36,440 nt of DNA, from positions 1-36,440 of the IMG/VR virus record IMGVR_UViG_3300040801_003111, one strand, 5' to 3'. Shown here in pieces: positions 2,295-36,440 of the stretch; position 1 is the stretch's first letter, and each line of letters starts with the position of its first letter. The position numbers and the translations under genes were made by a program. This stretch comes from a virus. The notes under the pieces are model-generated. The model saw only the letters and a program-made list of their open reading frames with translations. It was not told the origin of the DNA and ran no database searches.

Positions 2295-2816
2295 TTTAAG
2301 ATGCTCACTGCCAGTGAAGAGGAAAAGCTAAGAGAGAGCCTAAAGTTTTGCTCGCCCCGAGACCGACTCATTGTCAAGATCCTTCTCGACTATGGTCCAA
2401 GGGGAGCGGAGTTAAGAGAGATTTTACGCTCTGATATCGATCTTGAGGCTCAGACCATCACTATCGGTGGCAAGAAAGGCTCAGAATCCCGCCAATTTCC
2501 GATTCTCCCGGCGCTTTTAGAAGAACTTGAGGCTTATGTTAGGTCTCTGGATATCGCCCCACACGAGCCAATTTTCGAGCTCTCAGCCAGTGGCCTTAAA
2601 AAAGTATGGTATCGGGTGAGACCCTGCTTAAAAGGGGTGCACTCTTTGCGCCACACTTTCGCGGTGAATCTGTACCGGAGAACTCGGGATATTCGCATGG
2701 TGCAAGTCTGCTTGGGGCACCGCTCCATTCAGAACACTCTTGTGTACGCCCAGTTTGTGGACTCAACAGAGAGAATCCGGGAGATTTTCTTGCCAGGAGA
2801 GAGTCATGTCAGCTAA
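2286..2816 (+). CDS. Compact tyrosine recombinase (catalytic domain only)
   Basis: A 176-aa protein containing the full tyrosine-recombinase catalytic set: Arg39 (GPRGAEL), a beta-hairpin Lys near 64 (GGKKGS), His119 and Arg122 (HSLRH), His145 (LGHRS) and nucleophile Tyr154 (VYAQF). The usual N-terminal core- and arm-binding domains are absent; typical phage integrases have 330-400 residues. All catalytic residues are present, so it may be active on short sites, for example as a resolvase or invertase, or with a partner. It is distinct from the full-size integrase at 14745-15779. It overlaps the following HTH gene by 11 nt, suggesting a coupled unit. Confidence 0.88.
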   Translation: MSKFKMLTASEEEKLRESLKFCSPRDRLIVKILLDYGPRGAELREILRSDIDLEAQTITIGGKKGSESRQFPILPALLEELEAYVRSLDIAPHEPIFELSASGLKKVWYRVRPCLKGVHSLRHTFAVNLYRRTRDIRMVQVCLGHRSIQNTLVYAQFVDSTERIREIFLPGESHVS

Positions 2817-3096
2817 GAGCCTCTCCATGTCCCCAACTGCGCATAAGGCTAAGGCCAACTCCCTTGGTGAGTTTATTAAAGAGGTAAGACAGACCCGAGA
2901 CTGGTTCCAGGCTGATCTTGCTAAGGCCTGCGGGGTTGACCAAAGCTACATCTCCATGGTGGAGAATGGAAGGTGGTCAAAGCCACCCCTTGATACAGTG
3001 AGAAAGATTTACAAGAACGTGCTCACCAACGAGGAGAAAGCCCAGCTCATGCTCGTGCTCTACTCCCTTATGGATGAGTATGTAGAGAGCCCCTAG
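2806..3096 (+). CDS. Cro/CI-type helix-turn-helix regulator
   Basis: A 96-aa protein. The ATG at 2806 is chosen because AGGAG lies 7 nt upstream. An HTH_3 domain spans about residues 19-75: an initial helix (LGEFIKEVRQTRDWFQ), then DLAKACGVDQSYISMVENG, the classical turn and recognition helix. There is no C-terminal peptidase domain, so this is a Cro-like or small CI-like DNA-binding protein. It could bind the ATGAGT-N4-ACTCAT sites found at 3627, 15817 and 30385. The first of these lies about 530 bp downstream, in the promoter of the convergent resolvase gene. The 3' end overlaps that convergent gene by 4 nt. Confidence 0.85.
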   Translation: MSAKSLSMSPTAHKAKANSLGEFIKEVRQTRDWFQADLAKACGVDQSYISMVENGRWSKPPLDTVRKIYKNVLTNEEKAQLMLVLYSLMDEYVESP

Positions 3097-8290: not shown

Positions 8291-8310
8291 CTTGGTTCTC
8301 CTCTAAAAAA

Positions 8311-8376
8311 TTGGCGGGTTCGGGCGTCCCTCCCTCGTTTTAATGAACATGACTCCTGACCATGCTCTCCCGCCAA
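8311..8376. other. Inverted repeat in the gap before the 189-aa gene
   Basis: TTGGCGGG (8311-8318) and CCCGCCAA (8369-8376) form a perfect 8-bp inverted repeat about 50 nt apart, in the 100-nt gap between the repeat gene and the 189-aa gene. A 15-codon frame with its own AGGAG (8350-8303, minus) lies between the arms. It may be an RNA structure controlling the downstream gene; no function is proved. Confidence 0.4.
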
Positions 8377-8390
8377 ACCTAGCTTCCTTT

Positions 8391-8633
8391 TTAACCGTCA
8401 CCGGAACCGTCACCGTAACCGTCACCGGAACCGTCGCCGTAACCGTAACCGTCACCGGAACCGTGACCGTAACCGGAACCGGAACCGTAACCGTAACCGT
8501 CGCCGGAACCGTAACCGGAACCGTCACCGGAACCGGAACCGTAACCGTAACCGTAACCGTCACCGGAACCGGAACCGTCACCGGAACCGGAACCGTCGCC
8601 GGAACCAGACCATCTTTTAATTATTTTTTCCAT
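8391..8633 (-). CDS. Low-complexity protein of 36 X-Gly dipeptides
   Basis: An 80-aa protein with a short charged head, MEKIIKRW, followed by 36 dipeptides in which every second residue is Gly and the other is Ser, Asp or Tyr (one His). The head reads as a genuine translation start and overlaps the upstream gene by 13 nt. Gly codons are GGT/GGC, Ser always TCC, Asp GAC and Tyr TAC, so the tract expanded from one hexamer. The product should be disordered and sticky, like a silk or a phase-separating segment. The opposite strand reads as Thr-Val/Gly repeats and is taken as a shadow. Function unknown. Confidence 0.65.
   Translation of the reverse strand: MEKIIKRWSGSGDGSGSGDGSGSGDGYGYGYGSGSGDGSGYGSGDGYGYGSGSGYGHGSGDGYGYGDGSGDGYGDGSGDG
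8394..8609 (-). repeat. Hexanucleotide repeat tract
   Basis: About 36 tandem 6-nt units of the forms ACCGGA, ACCGTA, ACCGTC and ACCGTG (plus strand) run without interruption for about 216 nt. All units are in frame with the X-Gly protein, so copy-number changes alter length but not frame. Confidence 0.9.
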
Positions 8634-13279: not shown

Positions 13280-13660
13280 CTAGAAAGGGATCTCCTCGTT
13301 GCCTGAGCTTTCAGTTTTTTCTGCTGATCCCTTAGAGTCTAAGAACTGCACCGTTTGAGCCACGACTTCGGTCATGTACTTCTTGTTGCCTTGCTCGTCT
13401 TCCCATGACCTGGTTTGAAGCTTGCCTTCAACGTAGGCCTGAGAGCCTTTTTTGAGATACTTTGCACAGTTCTCAGCGGTCTTCCCCCAACAAGTGACCC
13501 GAGTCCACTCAGTCTTTTCTTGCTTATTGCCATCTTTGTCGGTCCATTTTTCTGAGGTCGCTAGACTCATATTGGCAACGGTTTGCCCACCATCAAGTGT
13601 TTTGCTCTCCGGGTCTGCGCCTAAACGGCCCACGATGATAACTTTATTTACTCCACTCAT
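13280..13660 (-). CDS. ssb: Single-stranded DNA-binding protein
   Basis: A 126-aa OB-fold SSB. The start MSGVNKVIIVGRLGADPE and the central EKTEWTRVTCWGKTAENCAK are hallmark SSB strands, followed by KKGSQAYVEGKLQTRSWED. The acidic end GNEEIPF matches the C-terminal tip that recruits partner proteins. AAAGGAG precedes the ATG, which overlaps the Sak4-like gene's stop as ATGA. It coats single strands during replication and recombination. Confidence 0.96.
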   Translation of the reverse strand: MSGVNKVIIVGRLGADPESKTLDGGQTVANMSLATSEKWTDKDGNKQEKTEWTRVTCWGKTAENCAKYLKKGSQAYVEGKLQTRSWEDEQGNKKYMTEVVAQTVQFLDSKGSAEKTESSGNEEIPF

Positions 13661-14400
13661 TTCACTTCTCCTTTTATTTTCATTGCGATCTCCGCAAGGT
13701 TTGGTTTCTCAAATTTCTCTAGGTTTCCAGAGCGGTCCTTAGCAAAAGCCTCGTCAGTGGCCTGAGTTAAGATGTAGCGCTTATCTCCCTTGATTCCGTA
13801 ATAGAGGATCTCATCAAAGAAGGCGGGGAGGTTTTCTGGAATCTTTTGCCCTGGCATTAGGACCGAGGCCGGATGTCTTCTGATCACCTTTTGACTTTTC
13901 TCATCAATGTCTTCTTTGTGCTCAACAAGGGCTGTGAACCAAATGTTGTAATAGGGAAGATCCCTGAACCCCAAAATGAGGTTTGTCATTTTCTTTGTGT
14001 ACTCACCATAGCGGGGCTTAGCCATTTTTTGGGAGCCAAACTTTTCGCTTTTTTCAAGCATACGGATGACAATCCCACCAAGCTCGGTGATACCATCGAC
14101 ATAAATAGTTTTAAATTTCTTGCTGGCCTCCTCGGTCTTAAGCCAATCAAAGACCTTAAGGAGTTTCTGATAGCGTCCAGCCTCATCAAGAGCCATGACT
14201 TTGCCATCCTGCTTGTCGATTGTGAGATCAATCATCGGGATGTCGAATTTATTAAGAGTTAGGTGCCCGGACTCCGCTGAAATAAGTAGTGTATTGGGGC
14301 CAGCTGTGGACGCGAGATAAGTTTTTCCCACGCCACTTGGGCCTAAGATTACGCCCTTAATACGGTCGGCACTAGCCCCCTTAGTTGACTCTATAAACAT
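13657..14400 (-). CDS. Sak4-like RecA-type ATPase (single-strand annealing)
   Basis: 247 aa from the ATG at 14400. The Walker A motif is GPSGVGKT at residues 20-27 and Walker B is KTIYVDGITEL near 105-115. The surrounding pattern (TAGPNTLLISAESGHLTL, IWFTALVEHKEDID, MPGQKIPENLPAFFDEILYY) is that of the phage AAA_24/Sak4 family, a minimal RecA core that anneals single strands with SSB help. Its position immediately before SSB and the exonuclease supports this strongly. A TTG at 14430 is a possible longer start, but the ATG has a better upstream site (AAAGG). Confidence 0.85.
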   Translation of the reverse strand: MFIESTKGASADRIKGVILGPSGVGKTYLASTAGPNTLLISAESGHLTLNKFDIPMIDLTIDKQDGKVMALDEAGRYQKLLKVFDWLKTEEASKKFKTIYVDGITELGGIVIRMLEKSEKFGSQKMAKPRYGEYTKKMTNLILGFRDLPYYNIWFTALVEHKEDIDEKSQKVIRRHPASVLMPGQKIPENLPAFFDEILYYGIKGDKRYILTQATDEAFAKDRSGNLEKFEKPNLAEIAMKIKGEVK

Positions 14401-14554
14401 AGTTTTCGCCTTTAGGTAATTGGGTTTCAAGATGGGCCTTTAGATTTAAGTAGGCCTTAAACATTTTGTCTGGGTCTCGGAAGTCCTCAAGCTTGCAACG
14501 GATCAGCATTCCGTTTTCGCCCGGGAGTAAAATTATAACCTTGTGCTTTTCCAT
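14381..14554 (-). CDS. 57-aa small protein at the head of the early operon
   Basis: The ATG at 14554 has GGGGAG 5 nt upstream and the frame ends at a TAA at 14381, overlapping the Sak4-like start by 20 nt. The product (KVIILLPGENGMLIRCKLED, then PDKMFKAYLNLKAHL) looks like a small alpha/beta fold. It is the first gene after attP, and its ribosome binding site lies about 8 nt from the left att arm. Function unknown. Confidence 0.6.
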   Translation of the reverse strand: MEKHKVIILLPGENGMLIRCKLEDFRDPDKMFKAYLNLKAHLETQLPKGENYVYRVN

Positions 14555-14574
14555 GCTGTCTCCCCTGAGACCAA

Positions 14575-14605
14575 GAGAAACACTTCTTTGCTAGATAAAA
14601 GTCAG
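14575..14605 (+). repeat. Left arm of attP inverted repeat
   Basis: This arm carries GAGAAACAC (14575-14583), then GCTA (14590-14593), then AAAGTCAG (14598-14605). The same three blocks recur in inverted order and orientation at 14668-14699, on the other side of the tRNA-derived core. Paired arms like this are expected for integrase arm-binding sites or for excisionase or host-factor sites. Confidence 0.6.
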
Positions 14606-14615
14606 GCAATCCAGA

Positions 14616-14660
14616 TTGGGGTGGTGGAGGTCGCTGGTTCAAATCCAGTCGGGCCGACCA
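14616..14660 (+). other. attP: attP core: 3' half of a tRNA-Pro(GGG) gene
   Basis: These 45 nt read as a tRNA from the anticodon loop to the end. The loop is TTGGGGT (14616-14622) with anticodon GGG; the 3' anticodon stem is GGTGG and the variable region AGGTC. A T-arm follows (GCTGG, loop TTCAAAT, CCAGT; four Watson-Crick pairs and one wobble). The acceptor strand is CGGGCCG, with A73 and CCA (14658-14660). The implied C1-G72/A73 end is typical of bacterial tRNA-Pro. There is no D-arm or 5' acceptor upstream, and only three of the five anticodon-stem pairs remain, so this is a fragment and not a functional tRNA. A 3' tRNA fragment next to an integrase gene is the standard form of a phage attachment site that rebuilds the host tRNA on integration. 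Confidence 0.85.
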
Positions 14661-14667
14661 ACTTACT

Positions 14668-14703
14668 CTGACTTTCATTTAGCTGGGAGGGTGTTTCTCT
14701 CAG
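14668..14703 (-). repeat. Right arm of attP inverted repeat
   Basis: CTGACTTT (14668-14675), TAGC (14680-14683) and GTGTTTCTC (14691-14699) are the reverse complements of the left-arm blocks, in mirrored order and with nearly equal spacing. The terminal CTCAG also mirrors CTGAG near 14566. Confidence 0.6.
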
Positions 14704-14744: not shown

Positions 14745-15779
14745 TTATGCAATATTTTCAATCTTAGACTTCAGCAGGCTGGCATCAGAATGAATATACC
14801 CTTCTGTGACCGTAACTGAGGAGTGACCAAGTAGGCCCTTTATTTCATTGACCGTTAAGCCCCCCTCATGAAGTCTGGATGCCAGACTATGCCTAAGCCC
14901 GTGAAGGCTAAGAATGTCCCCATGATTATTCTTGAGCCCTGATCTGATCAAGACCTTTCTCACTCGGCCTGTAAAATTTTTTGAATTTATTGGTTTTCCA
15001 CTGGGCTCAGTGAAAAGATAATTATGGGAAATTGAGGGGTTATCTCTTCTCTTAAGTAGTTCAATAATGAATTTGTGTAGCTTGTCATAGATGGGAAAGT
15101 AATAAGTCTTAACGCTCTGCTTTGGCCCTTTACTTGAGCGAAAACTAATGCGGCGGTTTTTCATATCAATGTCACTCAGCCTTGCATCCGCAGCGCTTGA
15201 AAGCCTTGCGCCGGTCAGCCAAAGGAACTCAAAAAGATCTTGGTCTTCTTTTGAGTGCAAAGATTTTTTAATTTTCTCAAACTCATATGCCCCCCAAACA
15301 GCCTTGGGAGCGGGGTTTTCGGGCATCTTTTTGACATACCTTGCCGGTGACTTAAGGATCATCTCCCACTGAATGAGCTTATTAAAGAAGTTTTTAATCG
15401 TTGAAAAATAGCGGTTGACCGTCGCGGGGTTTAGGCCCTTTTCAAAAAGAAGAAAAGATTGAAAACCCTCGATGTGAGATTGATTAAGGCTTGTGATGGG
15501 TTCTGTTGGTGAGACCCCCTGTCTTTTTAAGTAAAGTAAAAAGCTTTTAAAGATAAACCTCTCCCATTTTTCGGTGCCAGGACTCTTTTTTCTTGAAACA
15601 AGACTGATGTACTTCTCTATGCAGTGATCAATGGGATAAAGCTTTGTAACATATGATCTTTTAAGGTTTTCAAAGAAAATCTGAGCCTCTTCTCTGGTAT
15701 TGAAAACTTTTTGAAATTCATATCCAAACAGATCGAAATGAGCATCATAACCCCCCTCACTATTTTTAGTAATTCGCAC
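14745..15779 (-). CDS. int: Phage integrase, tyrosine recombinase
   Basis: About 344 aa from the GTG at 15779, chosen because GGAGG lies 5 nt upstream; a GTG at 15800 is an alternative (351 aa, numbering used here). An N-terminal arm-type domain (about 8-50) is followed by a SAM-like core-binding domain (about 57-160, including NPATVNRYFSTIKNFFNKL). The catalytic domain has Arg199 (TGARLSS), Lys224 (RSSKGP), His300 and Arg303 (HGLRH), His326 (LGHSS) and Tyr335 (EGYIH). All active-site residues are present and the length is normal. The gene ends next to the tRNA-Pro-derived attP. A palindromic operator lies about 40 nt upstream, so expression is probably repressor-controlled. Confidence 0.95.
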   Translation of the reverse strand: MRITKNSEGGYDAHFDLFGYEFQKVFNTREEAQIFFENLKRSYVTKLYPIDHCIEKYISLVSRKKSPGTEKWERFIFKSFLLYLKRQGVSPTEPITSLNQSHIEGFQSFLLFEKGLNPATVNRYFSTIKNFFNKLIQWEMILKSPARYVKKMPENPAPKAVWGAYEFEKIKKSLHSKEDQDLFEFLWLTGARLSSAADARLSDIDMKNRRISFRSSKGPKQSVKTYYFPIYDKLHKFIIELLKRRDNPSISHNYLFTEPSGKPINSKNFTGRVRKVLIRSGLKNNHGDILSLHGLRHSLASRLHEGGLTVNEIKGLLGHSSVTVTEGYIHSDASLLKSKIENIA

Positions 15780-15816
15780 ACAAGCCTCCGTGGGCCACAC
15801 TACACAAGTCCGGTTT

Positions 15817-19734: not shown

Positions 19735-20087
19735 AAATCCAGCTTCAGTAAAATCTGATTATTGTCATAAGACTTAATGGGGACAAAACCAAGAGCCAGG
19801 TAACAACGCAAAAGCTTTGCCTTTCTCTTGTTTTCATCGTCAGTTAATCCCAGCGAAACAATCCCTGTTATCATTTTGCAGTTATTCTTTTTTGCAAACT
19901 CAACAAACCTTGTGAAAAACTTTTTGCACTCAAGAGTTCCTCTGTGCTCAGGGCTAACGTAGAGATCAGAAAAGAAAAGCTCACTTGAAGATGGGTTGAG
20001 CTTATAACAGCAGAACCCATAATCATTAACAAAGGTGTCCTTGCCATACTCTTCTTTCATGTAGCCTGCGAACATCTCGTTAAACAT
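19731..20087 (-). CDS. GNAT-family acetyltransferase-like protein
   Basis: A 118-aa protein with the core GNAT pattern. Strand SSSELFFSDLYVSPEHRG includes the acetyl-CoA-binding turn region (here PEHRGTLECKKFFTRF, a variant of Q/RxxGxG/A). MITGIVSLGLTD follows, then LLRCYLALGFVPIKSY, the usual C-terminal 'YxxxGF' element. The glycine-rich loop is degenerate, so acetyl-CoA binding may be weakened. It is embedded between virion genes, overlapping the Hint-domain gene by 8 nt and the cupin-like gene by 4 nt. It could modify a virion or host protein; the target is unknown. Confidence 0.75.
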   Translation of the reverse strand: MFNEMFAGYMKEEYGKDTFVNDYGFCCYKLNPSSSELFFSDLYVSPEHRGTLECKKFFTRFVEFAKKNNCKMITGIVSLGLTDDENKRKAKLLRCYLALGFVPIKSYDNNQILLKLDL

Positions 20088-21228
20088 AAACGCCCCGGTT
20101 CTTTAGCTTCAAACACTCCTCGTCAGAAAGCCTTTGATCATCAACCTCATCAAAGTCTGAGAAAACAACCCCATTAATAATAATTTCGTGATCTTCGGTT
20201 GAGAGGTTATAAAGACGCTCAAACTCAACGCCTAACAATTTGGCCTCATCAGTATCTTTCACCCGGACCCACTCCTCGCCATCAAAAACAGCGTGATCTC
20301 CTGTTACGATAACACCCTTATAGTCATACCACTCAGCGCCACTTGCGGTGCCCTCAATGGTCTTTGTAACCACCCCGCCGCTATCAACTCGGTCCCCAAC
20401 AGAGACTCTTTCAATTGATTTTTTTGAACCATCGGCCATGTCAATGAGTGTTCCCTTGGGGAAACATCCACCGCCCGCACCCTTTTGTGCTTCGGCTTGC
20501 TTAATCCCAGCCCAGTCCTGACGCTCCTGAGTCCACTTATCAAGGTCGGCCTGCCTTCTGGCATCGCGCTCTTGAAGTGAGTTTGTAATATCGAACTCTC
20601 TTCCCTGAAGACCCATGCGATTACGATCCATCTCCATGCCAGTGAGAGACTGCAATTGACCAATGCGGTTTTGCTCATCTTGCGCCAAGATTCCGAGGCG
20701 ATCTCTTCTGTAATCTCTTCTTGCCCCCTGTCTTGCCTCAAGGAGTGAGCGTATAGAGTTTGCCCCCATGCGCTCTCTTGCGCCACTTCCAATCCCACCT
20801 TGCGCTGCCATCTGATCCATTGAGTTTGCAAGCCCCATTTGATACTGGCTTGAGATATCTCCAAGCTGGTCTTGCCGATCGAGGTCTCGCCTCTGAAGCA
20901 TAAGATCAGCAAAGGTCGATGGCCCATCTCTTAGGGCTTCATCTTGAAACTTTTGGAAACCAACATCATCGCTCATTGCATCTTGCACCGCCTGATTAAG
21001 CTGGTAGCGCTGATCAATCATATTGTCTTTGCCGAGCATAGAATCCCACTCTGGCCTGATTGGTGAGCCATCAGGGTTTTTACCCTCTTTTTTCAGTTGG
21101 ACATTACGCTTTTTGGTATTTAATTGCTCAAGCTCTGCCGGTGTTTTGGCCGTATAAGTCTTGCCATCAATTTCGACTTCTTGGGGCTGAAAGCCTTTGC
21201 CCTGATTACCGCTAAATGCAGGATTCAT
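20080..21228 (-). CDS. Virion protein with C-terminal Hint (intein-like) domain
   Basis: About 382 aa from the ATG at 21228, chosen because GAGG lies 8 nt upstream. Residues about 1-250 are helical, Gln/Arg rich and virion-like (DLMLQRRDLDRQDQLGDISS). A Gly-rich linker leads to a Hint domain (Cys codon at 20466-20464). Block A is CFPKGTLIDMADGSKKSIER, block B is VTGDHAVF with the conserved His, and block F is LYNLSTEDHEIIINGVVFSD. There is no terminal Asn-Cys/Ser/Thr, so splicing is not expected. Cleavage at the Gly-Cys junction, as in hedgehog-type or bacterial Hint proteins, is the likely activity. That would separate the virion part from the Hint tail, or attach it to a nucleophile. Confidence 0.82.
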   Translation of the reverse strand: MNPAFSGNQGKGFQPQEVEIDGKTYTAKTPAELEQLNTKKRNVQLKKEGKNPDGSPIRPEWDSMLGKDNMIDQRYQLNQAVQDAMSDDVGFQKFQDEALRDGPSTFADLMLQRRDLDRQDQLGDISSQYQMGLANSMDQMAAQGGIGSGARERMGANSIRSLLEARQGARRDYRRDRLGILAQDEQNRIGQLQSLTGMEMDRNRMGLQGREFDITNSLQERDARRQADLDKWTQERQDWAGIKQAEAQKGAGGGCFPKGTLIDMADGSKKSIERVSVGDRVDSGGVVTKTIEGTASGAEWYDYKGVIVTGDHAVFDGEEWVRVKDTDEAKLLGVEFERLYNLSTEDHEIIINGVVFSDFDEVDDQRLSDEECLKLKNRGVYV

Positions 21229-21233
21229 CAACA

Positions 21234-21926
21234 TCACATCACCTCAAATTCGTCATAAATGTCTTCATAATAACTAAGATCGGGTTGGATCTCATCGCGA
21301 CTATCATCGGGAATCATATTATTTAAAGCCTCAATCATCAAAGCTCTTTGCCTTTGCATCGCTTGGCTTTCCGAATGATCCCACATAGGGCCAAGCTCTT
21401 TACCTCGAACCTGATCTTTTATATATTGCTTAATAAAAGCATCAGCAATCGGAATTTCAATCGTATCAGAGTCAGCGACAATCCTTGTTGCTGTTCTAAT
21501 ATAGTAGACCTTCATATTTGTTGAAGTCTCAGTTGGGGTGGGAAAAATCTCAATCTGCATCCCATTAACAGAATCATTTCTTAAGCGATAACGATAATAA
21601 TCATCCGTCTGATCAGAGTATCTGACCTCATCTTTTCGCTTAAGATAGCGAACCTCATACTCTTTAGAACCATTGTTGTATTCTATGTGAGTAATCTTGT
21701 GGGCCATAATGTCAGACGGAAGATTGTACCTTTGAGTGCCGCTCACCAAAGAAAGGGTGGTGTCGGTCTCAAAATACTTATCATAAAGACTTACGATCTC
21801 TTTTTCAGCTTGCTCAATCCCATCATTGGCCCAAGCCAAAAGCTCTAGGTCTGACACAAAATCCTCGCCATGAAGGTTCATATCATCCTTTATCTCTTCC
21901 TTTAGGGTCGCCCAGGTTTTTGCCAT
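21234..21926 (-). CDS. Head-tail adaptor-like protein
   Basis: A 230-aa protein. The N-terminal helix pair (VSDLELLAWANDGIEQAEKE) and central RYNLPSDIMAHKITHIEYN, followed by YYRYRLRNDSVNGMQIEIFP, match the pattern of podoviral adaptor proteins that dock below the portal. The C-terminal part is acidic and Tyr rich (DLSYYEDIYDEFEVM). TAATG overlap and GGGAGG before the start couple it to the preceding gene. It precedes internal proteins and follows the nozzle-like gene, as expected for tail-assembly genes. Confidence 0.78.
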   Translation of the reverse strand: MAKTWATLKEEIKDDMNLHGEDFVSDLELLAWANDGIEQAEKEIVSLYDKYFETDTTLSLVSGTQRYNLPSDIMAHKITHIEYNNGSKEYEVRYLKRKDEVRYSDQTDDYYRYRLRNDSVNGMQIEIFPTPTETSTNMKVYYIRTATRIVADSDTIEIPIADAFIKQYIKDQVRGKELGPMWDHSESQAMQRQRALMIEALNNMIPDDSRDEIQPDLSYYEDIYDEFEVM

Positions 21927-33929: not shown

Positions 33930-34260
33930 ATATCAACTCACTTTCCTCGTCCCCACCAACGGCAACGGAGTCTTCATCATTTTCTGGATCAAGCATTCGT
34001 CTTTGCCAAGCAGCCGGGTCTGTTAAATGAAGCATCTCATCCTCAAAGTCCTTATCTTCCTCGCCGCGCAAAGAAGATTCCTCGTTGCTTGTAATAATCT
34101 TCACCCGCTCATCAAGAGGGTGGACCGGGATTTGAGTGACACTCTCCTCATCGTCCTTTGCATCAAAGTCTACCTCAAGTTCACCGAGCTTTAGCTTTCT
34201 CACGCCTGCCTCTGAGCACTTCTCAATCAATTTGCCAAGCTTAGTTAAATCCATTTCCAT
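33919..34260 (-). CDS. Small acidic protein between terminase and portal
   Basis: A 113-aa protein whose ATG overlaps the terminase stop (TAATG) and whose end overlaps the portal start by 11 nt. A short helical N-terminus (LTKLGKLIEKCSEAGVRKLK) and strand GELEVDFDAKDDEE are followed by an acidic, probably disordered region. HLTDPAAWQRRMLDPENDED sits near the end. No family was recognised; the position suggests a virion or packaging accessory. Confidence 0.65.
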   Translation of the reverse strand: MEMDLTKLGKLIEKCSEAGVRKLKLGELEVDFDAKDDEESVTQIPVHPLDERVKIITSNEESSLRGEEDKDFEDEMLHLTDPAAWQRRMLDPENDEDSVAVGGDEESELIYEH

Positions 34261-36440
34261 TAATATCCCCCTAGAAGTTCCATAAACTCATCAATGTCCT
34301 CGTCAACACTCCACTCGTTTTCATGCTTGGTGGGGTCATAAGGATTCTCATGTCTTGAATTAACTTTTGGCTTTTTCTCAACAACTTGCATCGGCACAGG
34401 CTCATTAGTAATATGAGAAAAATCCCAAGGAATGGTCGCAACCGCATACCTAAGCGAATCACAGTTTGCGACCAAAACGCCCTGAGCAAAATATTCATGC
34501 TCGCCTTCAACTGTTATATTATAAACCCAATCCCTTTTAACAAATTTACCTCGGCACCCTTCTTGAGCATCTTCGCGAACAACTCTTTGCTTTTGAGTAT
34601 TTGTTTGTTGTGAACTTCGAGCCGCACACAACGCAAGCTCTCTCCACGTTGTCTGCACCTGAAGCCCTTCTATATTTAGATTTACAGGCATTGCTGCAAA
34701 ACTTGCCGCGTGAAAAGTATCCAAGATATTCAGCGCCACACTGTTTACACTCCATTTCAATTGGCTCTTTATTTTCCCAGGAAAGATAACCAATCTTTTT
34801 ATGAAACTCGTGCCCCTCTTTAGATCTGTGCCAAGCTTTAGTAAGCGGCCTAATTCTTTCCAAATGCTCCGACTGCTTTTTTCTATTCTTTGGGCAAGAT
34901 AGGTATTCTCTTGCGTGATGAGAACAGTGTTCTGATTCATGAATGCACTCAAGGTTTTCAATTGAGTTATTGGTGACATCACCATCTTTGTGGTGGATGT
35001 GATGCTTTTCCGGGATTTTGCCAAAATAATGCTTCCAAACCTCTTGATGCAGGGCCTGAACGCCATTTCCAATATGCGTCCCGCTCGGCTTATAATATCT
35101 GCGGTGAGCCTCTCTAGGGGAATCTGGATATCTTCTGAAAACAATATTGTTGAAAACAACTTCGTCTCTTCTTGCCATTGACTAAACTCCAAAAAATCTT
35201 GGTTATTTAAACAGTTTTTAATAGGGCAAAAAGCATCCTTGCTTTTCAAATAAAACTTATGATTATCAGTACACTGAATTGATTTGTTTCCCGGAAGGGA
35301 GAACTCATAAATGTCGGCAACGTGACGAGATAGGGAGACGACCCGCTTGAGCCCCTTTCTTGTATAAACATAATCACCAACGGCAATGTCCTCTATTTTC
35401 TTTTCACCACAATCGGCTTGAATCATGGTCCCTGCGGCAAAACAACCATCGTCTATAGCAGTCGTTTTCTTTTCATTTTGCTTTAAGTTCTCTAATTCAA
35501 AAACCAAGTCTTCAGCATCCCCAATATCCTCGATATCAAGCATCTGATTTCTAAAAAGTGTGTTGAGTAAATCAAAGCCAAAATCCCGCGCTTTATCAGC
35601 TTGATTAAAAGGAATACCTGCGGCCTGCGCTCGCAAGAAAAACTCTTTAGAGTGCCAATCATAGCGATTATCGGTCATGTTAAGCCCCTTGGTGAGCTCA
35701 ACATATTTATTTAAAATATCAGTCGTCGTGGTGGTCTCATACTTGTTGCCACGCCAAAACTTATAAAGCTTTCCCTTTCTAAATTTCTGATCAACAGCCA
35801 CGATACTGATCGCTGCCGGATGACCCTCTCTGCCGCCTGTGCCAACATCGACCCCCCCAAAGAACTGCCAGGTCATATCCGTTGGAGTCTTTTTCGTAAA
35901 GTTTATTGAGCGCTGAAAGCTTGGGAACGCAAGACCCTCGTCACTGACAAATCGGCCATGGATTCGGCGATTAACCTCGCGCTCACTTGAACAATTGGCT
36001 TTTCTTCTTGCCACCTCTTCATCGGTAAAAGGTGAGGGCGTGCCATCAGCGTACTCTTTGCAATCATACTCCAAGGAAACTTGTCTTTTAAAGGCCTCAG
36101 GAAACCTTTCATTTCGTTTCCCCCGAAGCTCAATGACCTCAAACCACTCCCTTTGACCAAGAGTGGCTGTAAAAACCATTGAGAACATTCCTTCAGCCAT
36201 ATTAAGGCGCTGCTGGAGCTCATCGAACTTATCAAAAGGAATTTCTTCATCAACGAAAACAGCATCAATGGTTGAACTTTGAAAATCCTGTCGCCAGGAC
36301 TTAAAATAAATTGTCACCCCTGTATTGAACTGCACACCAACAAAGTTGGCCCGGTGGTAGAGTTTCTTCCACCCATAATGATGATGGTTTTTCATGATCC
36401 CACGAGGCATGAACTCGCGCTCCCACTTTTGCGCAAACTC
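34260..36440 (-). CDS. terL: Terminase large subunit, intein-interrupted, 5' end outside window
   Basis: The packaging motor and nuclease. The reading frame is open through the window edge (upstream of the ATG at 36410 it reads EFAQKWEREF), so the start and Walker A lie outside. Residues are counted from that ATG. Walker B is IDAVFVDEEIP (about 48-58), and the coupling motif is FTATLG (80-85). The nuclease domain starts with FFGGVDVGTGG (Asp188). The last acidic motif, IDDG/CDSLRYA, is split by a 327-residue intein at 323-649. After splicing, DDGCDSLRYAVATIPWD is restored, and the C-tail ends DEFMELLGGY. Without splicing the nuclease would lack its third metal-binding region. The terminase frame is uninterrupted across the intein. 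Confidence 0.93.
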   Translation of the reverse strand, partial: EFAQKWEREFMPRGIMKNHHHYGWKKLYHRANFVGVQFNTGVTIYFKSWRQDFQSSTIDAVFVDEEIPFDKFDELQQRLNMAEGMFSMVFTATLGQREWFEVIELRGKRNERFPEAFKRQVSLEYDCKEYADGTPSPFTDEEVARRKANCSSEREVNRRIHGRFVSDEGLAFPSFQRSINFTKKTPTDMTWQFFGGVDVGTGGREGHPAAISIVAVDQKFRKGKLYKFWRGNKYETTTTTDILNKYVELTKGLNMTDNRYDWHSKEFFLRAQAAGIPFNQADKARDFGFDLLNTLFRNQMLDIEDIGDAEDLVFELENLKQNEKKTTAIDDGCFAAGTMIQADCGEKKIEDIAVGDYVYTRKGLKRVVSLSRHVADIYEFSLPGNKSIQCTDNHKFYLKSKDAFCPIKNCLNNQDFLEFSQWQEETKLFSTILFSEDIQIPLERLTADIISRAGRILEMAFRPCIKRFGSIILAKSRKSITSTTKMVMSPITQLKTLSAFMNQNTVLITQENTYLAQRIEKSSRSIWKELGRLLKLGTDLKRGTSFIKRLVIFPGKIKSQLKWSVNSVALNILDTFHAASFAAMPVNLNIEGLQVQTTWRELALCAARSSQQTNTQKQRVVREDAQEGCRGKFVKRDWVYNITVEGEHEYFAQGVLVANCDSLRYAVATIPWDFSHITNEPVPMQVVEKKPKVNSRHENPYDPTKHENEWSVDEDIDEFMELLGGY
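34464..35444 (-). other. Intein within TerL
   Basis: A 327-residue in-frame insertion with intein blocks. Block A begins CFAAGTMIQADCGEKKIEDI (Cys1 codon at 35444-35442). VGDYVYTRKGLKRVVSLS follows. Block B is CTDNHKFYL, with the TxxH motif at intein residues 59-62. Blocks F/G are YNITVEGEHEYFAQGVLVAN, followed by Cys+1 of the C-extein (codon 34463-34461). The last residue is Asn, as needed for cyclisation. The penultimate residue is Ala instead of the common His, a known but uncommon variant. The segment between intein residues about 89 and 300 is an out-of-frame reading of a nested HNH gene and has no homing motifs of its own in this frame. Confidence 0.9.
34546..35178 (-). CDS. HNH endonuclease nested out of frame inside the intein
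   Basis: A 210-aa protein in a frame shifted -1 relative to TerL. It starts at an ATG (35178) with GGAG 8 nt upstream and ends at a stop at 34546, 26 codons before the intein end. An N-terminal DNA-contact part (FRRYPDSPREAHRRYYKPSG) and LHQEVWKHYFGKIPEKHHIH lead to the HNH core HHIHHKDGDVTNNSIENLEC. A basic linker follows. Two zinc ribbons then come: CKQCG...CSNAC and CVVCG...CSRRC. All catalytic and metal positions look intact. It occupies the position where inteins usually carry an in-frame endonuclease, so it is probably the homing enzyme, made from its own start. Confidence 0.85.
   Translation of the reverse strand: MARRDEVVFNNIVFRRYPDSPREAHRRYYKPSGTHIGNGVQALHQEVWKHYFGKIPEKHHIHHKDGDVTNNSIENLECIHESEHCSHHAREYLSCPKNRKKQSEHLERIRPLTKAWHRSKEGHEFHKKIGYLSWENKEPIEMECKQCGAEYLGYFSRGKFCSNACKSKYRRASGADNVERACVVCGSKFTTNKYSKAKSCSRRCSRRVPR

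Follow-up and report, generated by a model that had tools for sequence, protein, structure and literature searches.

A Very Probable Phage attP Core Matching the 3' Half of tRNA-Pro(GGG), with the Opposite Half at the Same Locus of a Close Relative

Introduction

Among the 3,919 tRNA and tmRNA islands collected in Islander, 3,760 carry a 3' fragment of the target gene and 159 a 5' fragment, and 2,083 are anticodon-centred (PMC4383910). The 7-bp anticodon loop and its stem resemble the lambda core, and the tRNA rebuilt in bacteria keeps its own promoter, with few exceptions (PMC8371274). In the 5'-half cases, such as that of the archaeal pTN3, the rebuilt tRNA is placed under the integrase promoter (PMC8371274). 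The attP cores of the mycobacteriophages Boilgate, Ximenita, and Omega consist of 43-45 bp belonging to the 3' half of a tRNA (PMC10865867).

The sequence analyzed here, referred to below as the window, is the whole 36,440-nt stretch of the IMG/VR record IMGVR_UViG_3300040801_003111. Its att site is of the ordinary and commonest kind, that is, anticodon-centred with a 3' fragment: as in the Islander elements of this type, there is a tyrosine integrase, the attP holds the tRNA 3' end, and the tRNA is rebuilt. It differs from these islands in that no integrated copy of the phage was found among the host-phylum genomes, and in that the host group and the virus family have been little studied. The cores of Boilgate, Ximenita, and Omega are nearly equal to that of the window in length, involve the same tRNA half, and likewise rebuild the tRNA on integration, but the tRNA and the host are different, and the likeness described here is one of att cores. 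The tRNA-dependent lysogeny of Fionnbharth and Gaia (PMC10865867) also involves a tyrosine integrase and an attB located in a tRNA gene; there, however, the core is short (about 10 bp) and the tRNA is not rebuilt, whereas the 45-bp core of the window rebuilds tRNA-Pro. The phage-encoded cognate tRNA that is a trait of this system was not detected by ARAGORN in the window, which is an incomplete genome. The 5'-fragment elements (159/3,919 in Islander, along with the archaeal pTN3-like integrases) are the opposite of the common type to which the window belongs, and pTN3 is archaeal; they resemble the close relative L002 described below, which is of this rare kind, carries nt 1-46, and would rebuild the tRNA at the other junction.

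Results

The first-pass annotation placed the 3' half of a tRNA-Pro(GGG) at 14616-14660, and these coordinates proved to be exact: all the residues of the segment (45/45) are identical to nt 33-77 of the tRNA-Pro(GGG) of the Bdellovibrionales MAG HKST-UBA04, which is a complete tRNA gene (L004:1133-1209, ARAGORN), so that a bacterial tRNA-Pro(GGG) containing the whole stretch does exist (Table 1). This was the single exact match obtained on scanning a 257-Gb prokaryote collection comprising one genome per species (84,980 species), and based on our own arithmetic, the chance that 45 nt of a 36-kb window find an identical match in this collection is of the order of 1e-11. The core is composed of the anticodon loop TTGGGGT, the 3' anticodon stem GGTGG (14623-14627), the variable loop AGGTC, the T-arm GCTGG-TTCAAAT-CCAGT, the acceptor strand CGGGCCG, an A, and CCA. 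The identity runs from the anticodon loop through CCA, as annotated, and is lost abruptly at both ends: to the left, the window reads CCAGA where the tRNA gene reads CCACC, and to the right of CCA it reads AC instead of TT. The 5' anticodon stem is only partly complementary, as had also been observed, since CCAGA and GGTGG form only three of the five pairs (3/5). No complete tRNA lies upstream: ARAGORN detected no tRNA in the window, and Rfam found nothing there at the gathering threshold. The rest of the tRNA-Pro(GGG) shows no further match longer than 12 nt with the window, and an exact search of IMG/VR with a 41-nt core yielded no further virus. The fragment beside the integrase gene is a terminal 3' tRNA piece which starts in the anticodon stem-loop and runs through CCA.

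Table 1. Positions of the features at and around the att segment of the window.
Feature	Position	Strand	Evidence
Sak4-like ssDNA annealing protein, on the side of attP opposite the integrase	13657..14430	-	phrog_124 E=8e-34; synteny
Left flank of inverted repeat, AGAGAAACAC...GCTAGATAAAAGTCAG	14574..14605	.	repeat search (I1, I2); DNA fold
CCAGA in place of the 5' anticodon stem (CCACC in attB), a degenerate left core-type arm	14611..14615	+	sequence comparison
attP common core (very probable), 45 bp, = tRNA-Pro(GGG) nt 33-77	14616..14660	+	45/45 identity, HKST-UBA04
Anticodon loop TTGGGGT, 7-bp candidate overlap (strand-exchange) region	14616..14622	+	left identity edge; analogy
TTGGGGTGGTGGAG, part of the core common to the window and the 5'-half attP of L002	14616..14629	+	tRNA nt 33-46
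Right flank of inverted repeat, CTGACTTTCATTTAGC...GTGTTTCTCT	14668..14700	.	repeat search (I1, I2)
Tyrosine integrase, 351 aa, SAM-like core-binding and catalytic domains	14745..15800	-	PF00589 E=4e-26; PF13102; phrog_1 integrase E=1e-45

The integrase gene ends 84 bp from the core. On the opposite side of attP are a small ORF, the Sak4-like annealing protein, an SSB, and an exonuclease VIII-like gene. The core is bracketed by an imperfect inverted repeat, the flanks of which are candidate arm-type integrase sites, and the att segment folds as DNA better than its shuffled versions (z = -3.1). Elsewhere in the window, another tyrosine recombinase (2286-2816, +), which at 176 aa comprises just the catalytic domain, is 96% identical to its counterpart in the L002 record, and an HTH regulator follows it near 2740-3096; a low-complexity repeat at 8303-8633 is translated, depending on the frame, into dipeptide repeats of Thr-Val-Pro or of Gly-Asp-Ser-Tyr; and a protein of the virion block (20080-21237, -) shows a Hint-like domain near its C-terminus, with no obvious C-terminal extein.

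Two other IMG/VR records, L002 and L003, have the same gene order around the integrase gene and att (int-att-Sak4-SSB-exonuclease), and their integrases are 75% (over the alignment, L002) and 44% (L003) identical to that of the window. The three integrases form a clade with support values of 100/99; four of the integrated relatives were lost from this tree at the ORF extraction step, and the direction of the 5'/3' switch was therefore not read from it. The att contents of the three phages are all different. At the locus where the window carries the 3' half, L002 carries an exact match to nt 1-46, the 5' half, of the same tRNA-Pro(GGG) (L002:7111-7156, -); it lies within an inverted repeat that has the anticodon loop at its centre (fold z = -5.3). 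When L002 was integrated in silico, the tRNA-Pro was rebuilt at the opposite junction, 3' of the phage DNA, and the essential host tRNA is therefore predicted to be driven from a phage-side promoter. A sigma-70 promoter scan detected none at either attP. A NUMOD4-HNH endonuclease gene (L002:7205-7720, +) lies directly beside the 5'-half attP and is absent from this position in the window. In L003, a complete tRNA-Val(GAC) with C33 (L003:7018-7093, -) abuts the integrase gene or overlaps its end; this might be a whole-tRNA attP or might reflect tRNA-dependent lysogeny, to which the Fionnbharth and Gaia systems are possibly relevant. The idea that C33 marks a decayed copy was dropped, since the same residue occurs in an 88% identical tRNA-Val(GAC) in G077, a genome of the same class. 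In a further relative, L033, all that is left of the integrase is an internal segment (L033:4453-4850), and the attP region has been deleted; integration, and with it lysogeny, has therefore probably been lost in this lineage. We consider it rather probable that the attP half has switched within one small phage lineage while the locus, and probably the crossover, remained constant. A small literature search yielded no account of close relatives with opposite att polarity on one attB.

The two halves of the tRNA-Pro, nt 33-77 in the window and nt 1-46 in L002, have nt 33-46 in common. Since they overlap there, the comparison would confine the crossover to this stretch of the anticodon loop and 3' stem, provided that the two phages share one exchange point, and L002 thus provides independent support for the annotated crossover near the anticodon loop. 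The 7-nt anticodon loop is included in TTGGGGTGGTGGAG. It forms the left edge of the identity and is flanked in attB by the anticodon stem CCACC/GGTGG; by analogy with described anticodon-loop sites (PMC8371274), it is likely to be the 7-bp strand-exchange overlap.

Junctions were also constructed in silico for the window phage. ARAGORN recognized a tRNA-Pro(GGG) at attL, on the integrase side, and no tRNA at attR, so that in these constructs the tRNA is restored complete at one junction only. In genomes of the host class, four distant relatives of the integrase (24-29% identity) were found, each with a complete tRNA some 100-180 bp away, and the 3' 46-50 nt of this tRNA (from nt 28, 29, or 31) are duplicated 5-38 kb away. 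The tRNA and the distance to the repeated 3' fragment are tRNA-Val GAC and 37.7 kb in G014, tRNA-Glu TTC and 5.1 kb in G056, tRNA-Glu TTC and 4.8 kb in G061, and tRNA-Gly GCC and 19.3 kb in G089. These four elements are integrated and of the anticodon-centred 3'-fragment type. Along with the exact host match and the in-silico reconstruction, they lend weight to the annotated host attB, the tRNA-Pro(GGG) gene.

The search for prophages abutting tRNA-Pro(GGG) that the first-pass annotation had proposed gave a negative answer in the 369 genomes of the host phylum, where neither an integrated copy of the window phage nor a displaced tRNA-Pro fragment was detected. The 45-nt motif occurs within 3 mismatches in 15 of these 369 genomes, and since it is present as a single copy in all 15, none of them harbors a lysogen of the window phage. 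The host is likely to be Bdellovibrionales-like, because the 45 nt of the window and the 46 nt of L002 match exactly and the relatives of the integrase occur in this class; this assignment applies to the order level, one genome per species having been searched. We infer that it is a close relative of HKST-UBA04. In that MAG itself, the best match to the integrase was 32% identical over part of the protein, and there was no close integrase; a megablast comparison of the initial 25 kb of the window with phage genomes returned nothing.

The window was also annotated as having an intact attP and hence as a free phage genome. The former part of this statement stands: the att site is a non-integrated, uninterrupted attP, and since the record containing L003 (G371) is circularly permuted with respect to the window, it is most natural to read the molecules as non-integrated. 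The latter part has to be qualified, as the window is an incomplete genome: position 36440 cuts its terminase ORF, which lacks the Walker A segment present in the terminase of G371. No terminal repeat was found at the ends of the window. Circular closure was considered and rejected, since the frame stays open across the joined ends but the terminase is still without its Walker A part. The terminase of the window (34260-36410, -) contains an intein with a Hint domain; within the intein region, on the same strand but in another frame, is the ORF of an HNH endonuclease (34546-35178, -; HNH_3 E=1e-13). In G371, the terminase of L077 (G371:6500-13500) shows an in-frame intein-like insert right after the Walker A motif (GNQAGK), at a point differing from that of the intein in the window.

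Discussion

The segment 14616-14660 is very probably a phage attP core that mimics the host tRNA-Pro(GGG) gene in its 3' part, with strand exchange by the adjacent integrase at the anticodon loop or adjoining it. In the mechanism proposed, the tyrosine integrase would pair attP with an attB in the host tRNA-Pro(GGG) gene, namely its anticodon stem-loop, and strands would be exchanged at or beside the 7-bp loop. A complete tRNA would then form next to the integrase gene from the host 5' half and the phage 3' half, with the host promoter retained, and the host's own 3' half would end up at the distal end of the prophage. The model presumes an active integrase, and the exact cleavage points in it are predicted ones.

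Phages carry tRNA genes, and such genes can decay to fragments, which is what lends some sense to the idea that the segment is a decayed or captured piece of a phage tRNA gene with no attachment role. We regard this as extremely improbable, because the identity with the host gene is exact, its ends are sharp (at the anticodon loop and CCA), the piece adjoins the integrase gene, and other tRNA pieces occupy the corresponding spot in syntenic relatives. No greater credence can be given to the segment being the attR of an integrated prophage, made up of phage DNA and the host 3' half, or an assembly chimera: an attR would likewise show the 3' half only, but phage genes occupy both flanks, the int-att-Sak4 order is repeated in two independent records, and in G371, circularly permuted relative to the window, host DNA is absent at att.

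The segment may also be an attachment core at which the exchange occurs elsewhere, in the T-loop or at the acceptor end, the 45-nt identity being simply homology kept for rebuilding the tRNA. The identity between the window and the host is in itself compatible with a crossover at any of nt 33-77, and both the T-loop and the 3' end are known sublocations (PMC4383910, PMC8371274). L002, with its 75% identical integrase at the same locus, nevertheless shares only nt 1-46 with the tRNA, which leaves nt 33-46 in common, and the repeats of the four integrated relatives start at nt 28-31, in the anticodon stem; an exchange in the T-loop or acceptor end is thus very unlikely. Exchange at or beside the anticodon loop remains the reading we adopt, and opposite halves in two close relatives would place the crossover within 14 bp without any experiment.

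The pair of phages carrying opposite halves provides a case for studying how the polarity of attP changes and how an essential tRNA gene is controlled. The use of half a tRNA as a docking site is a common strategy; here, it points to a host resembling predatory bacteria. The exact tRNA match ties an unassigned environmental virus family to its probable host, the Bdellovibrionales, and indicates a temperate lifestyle.
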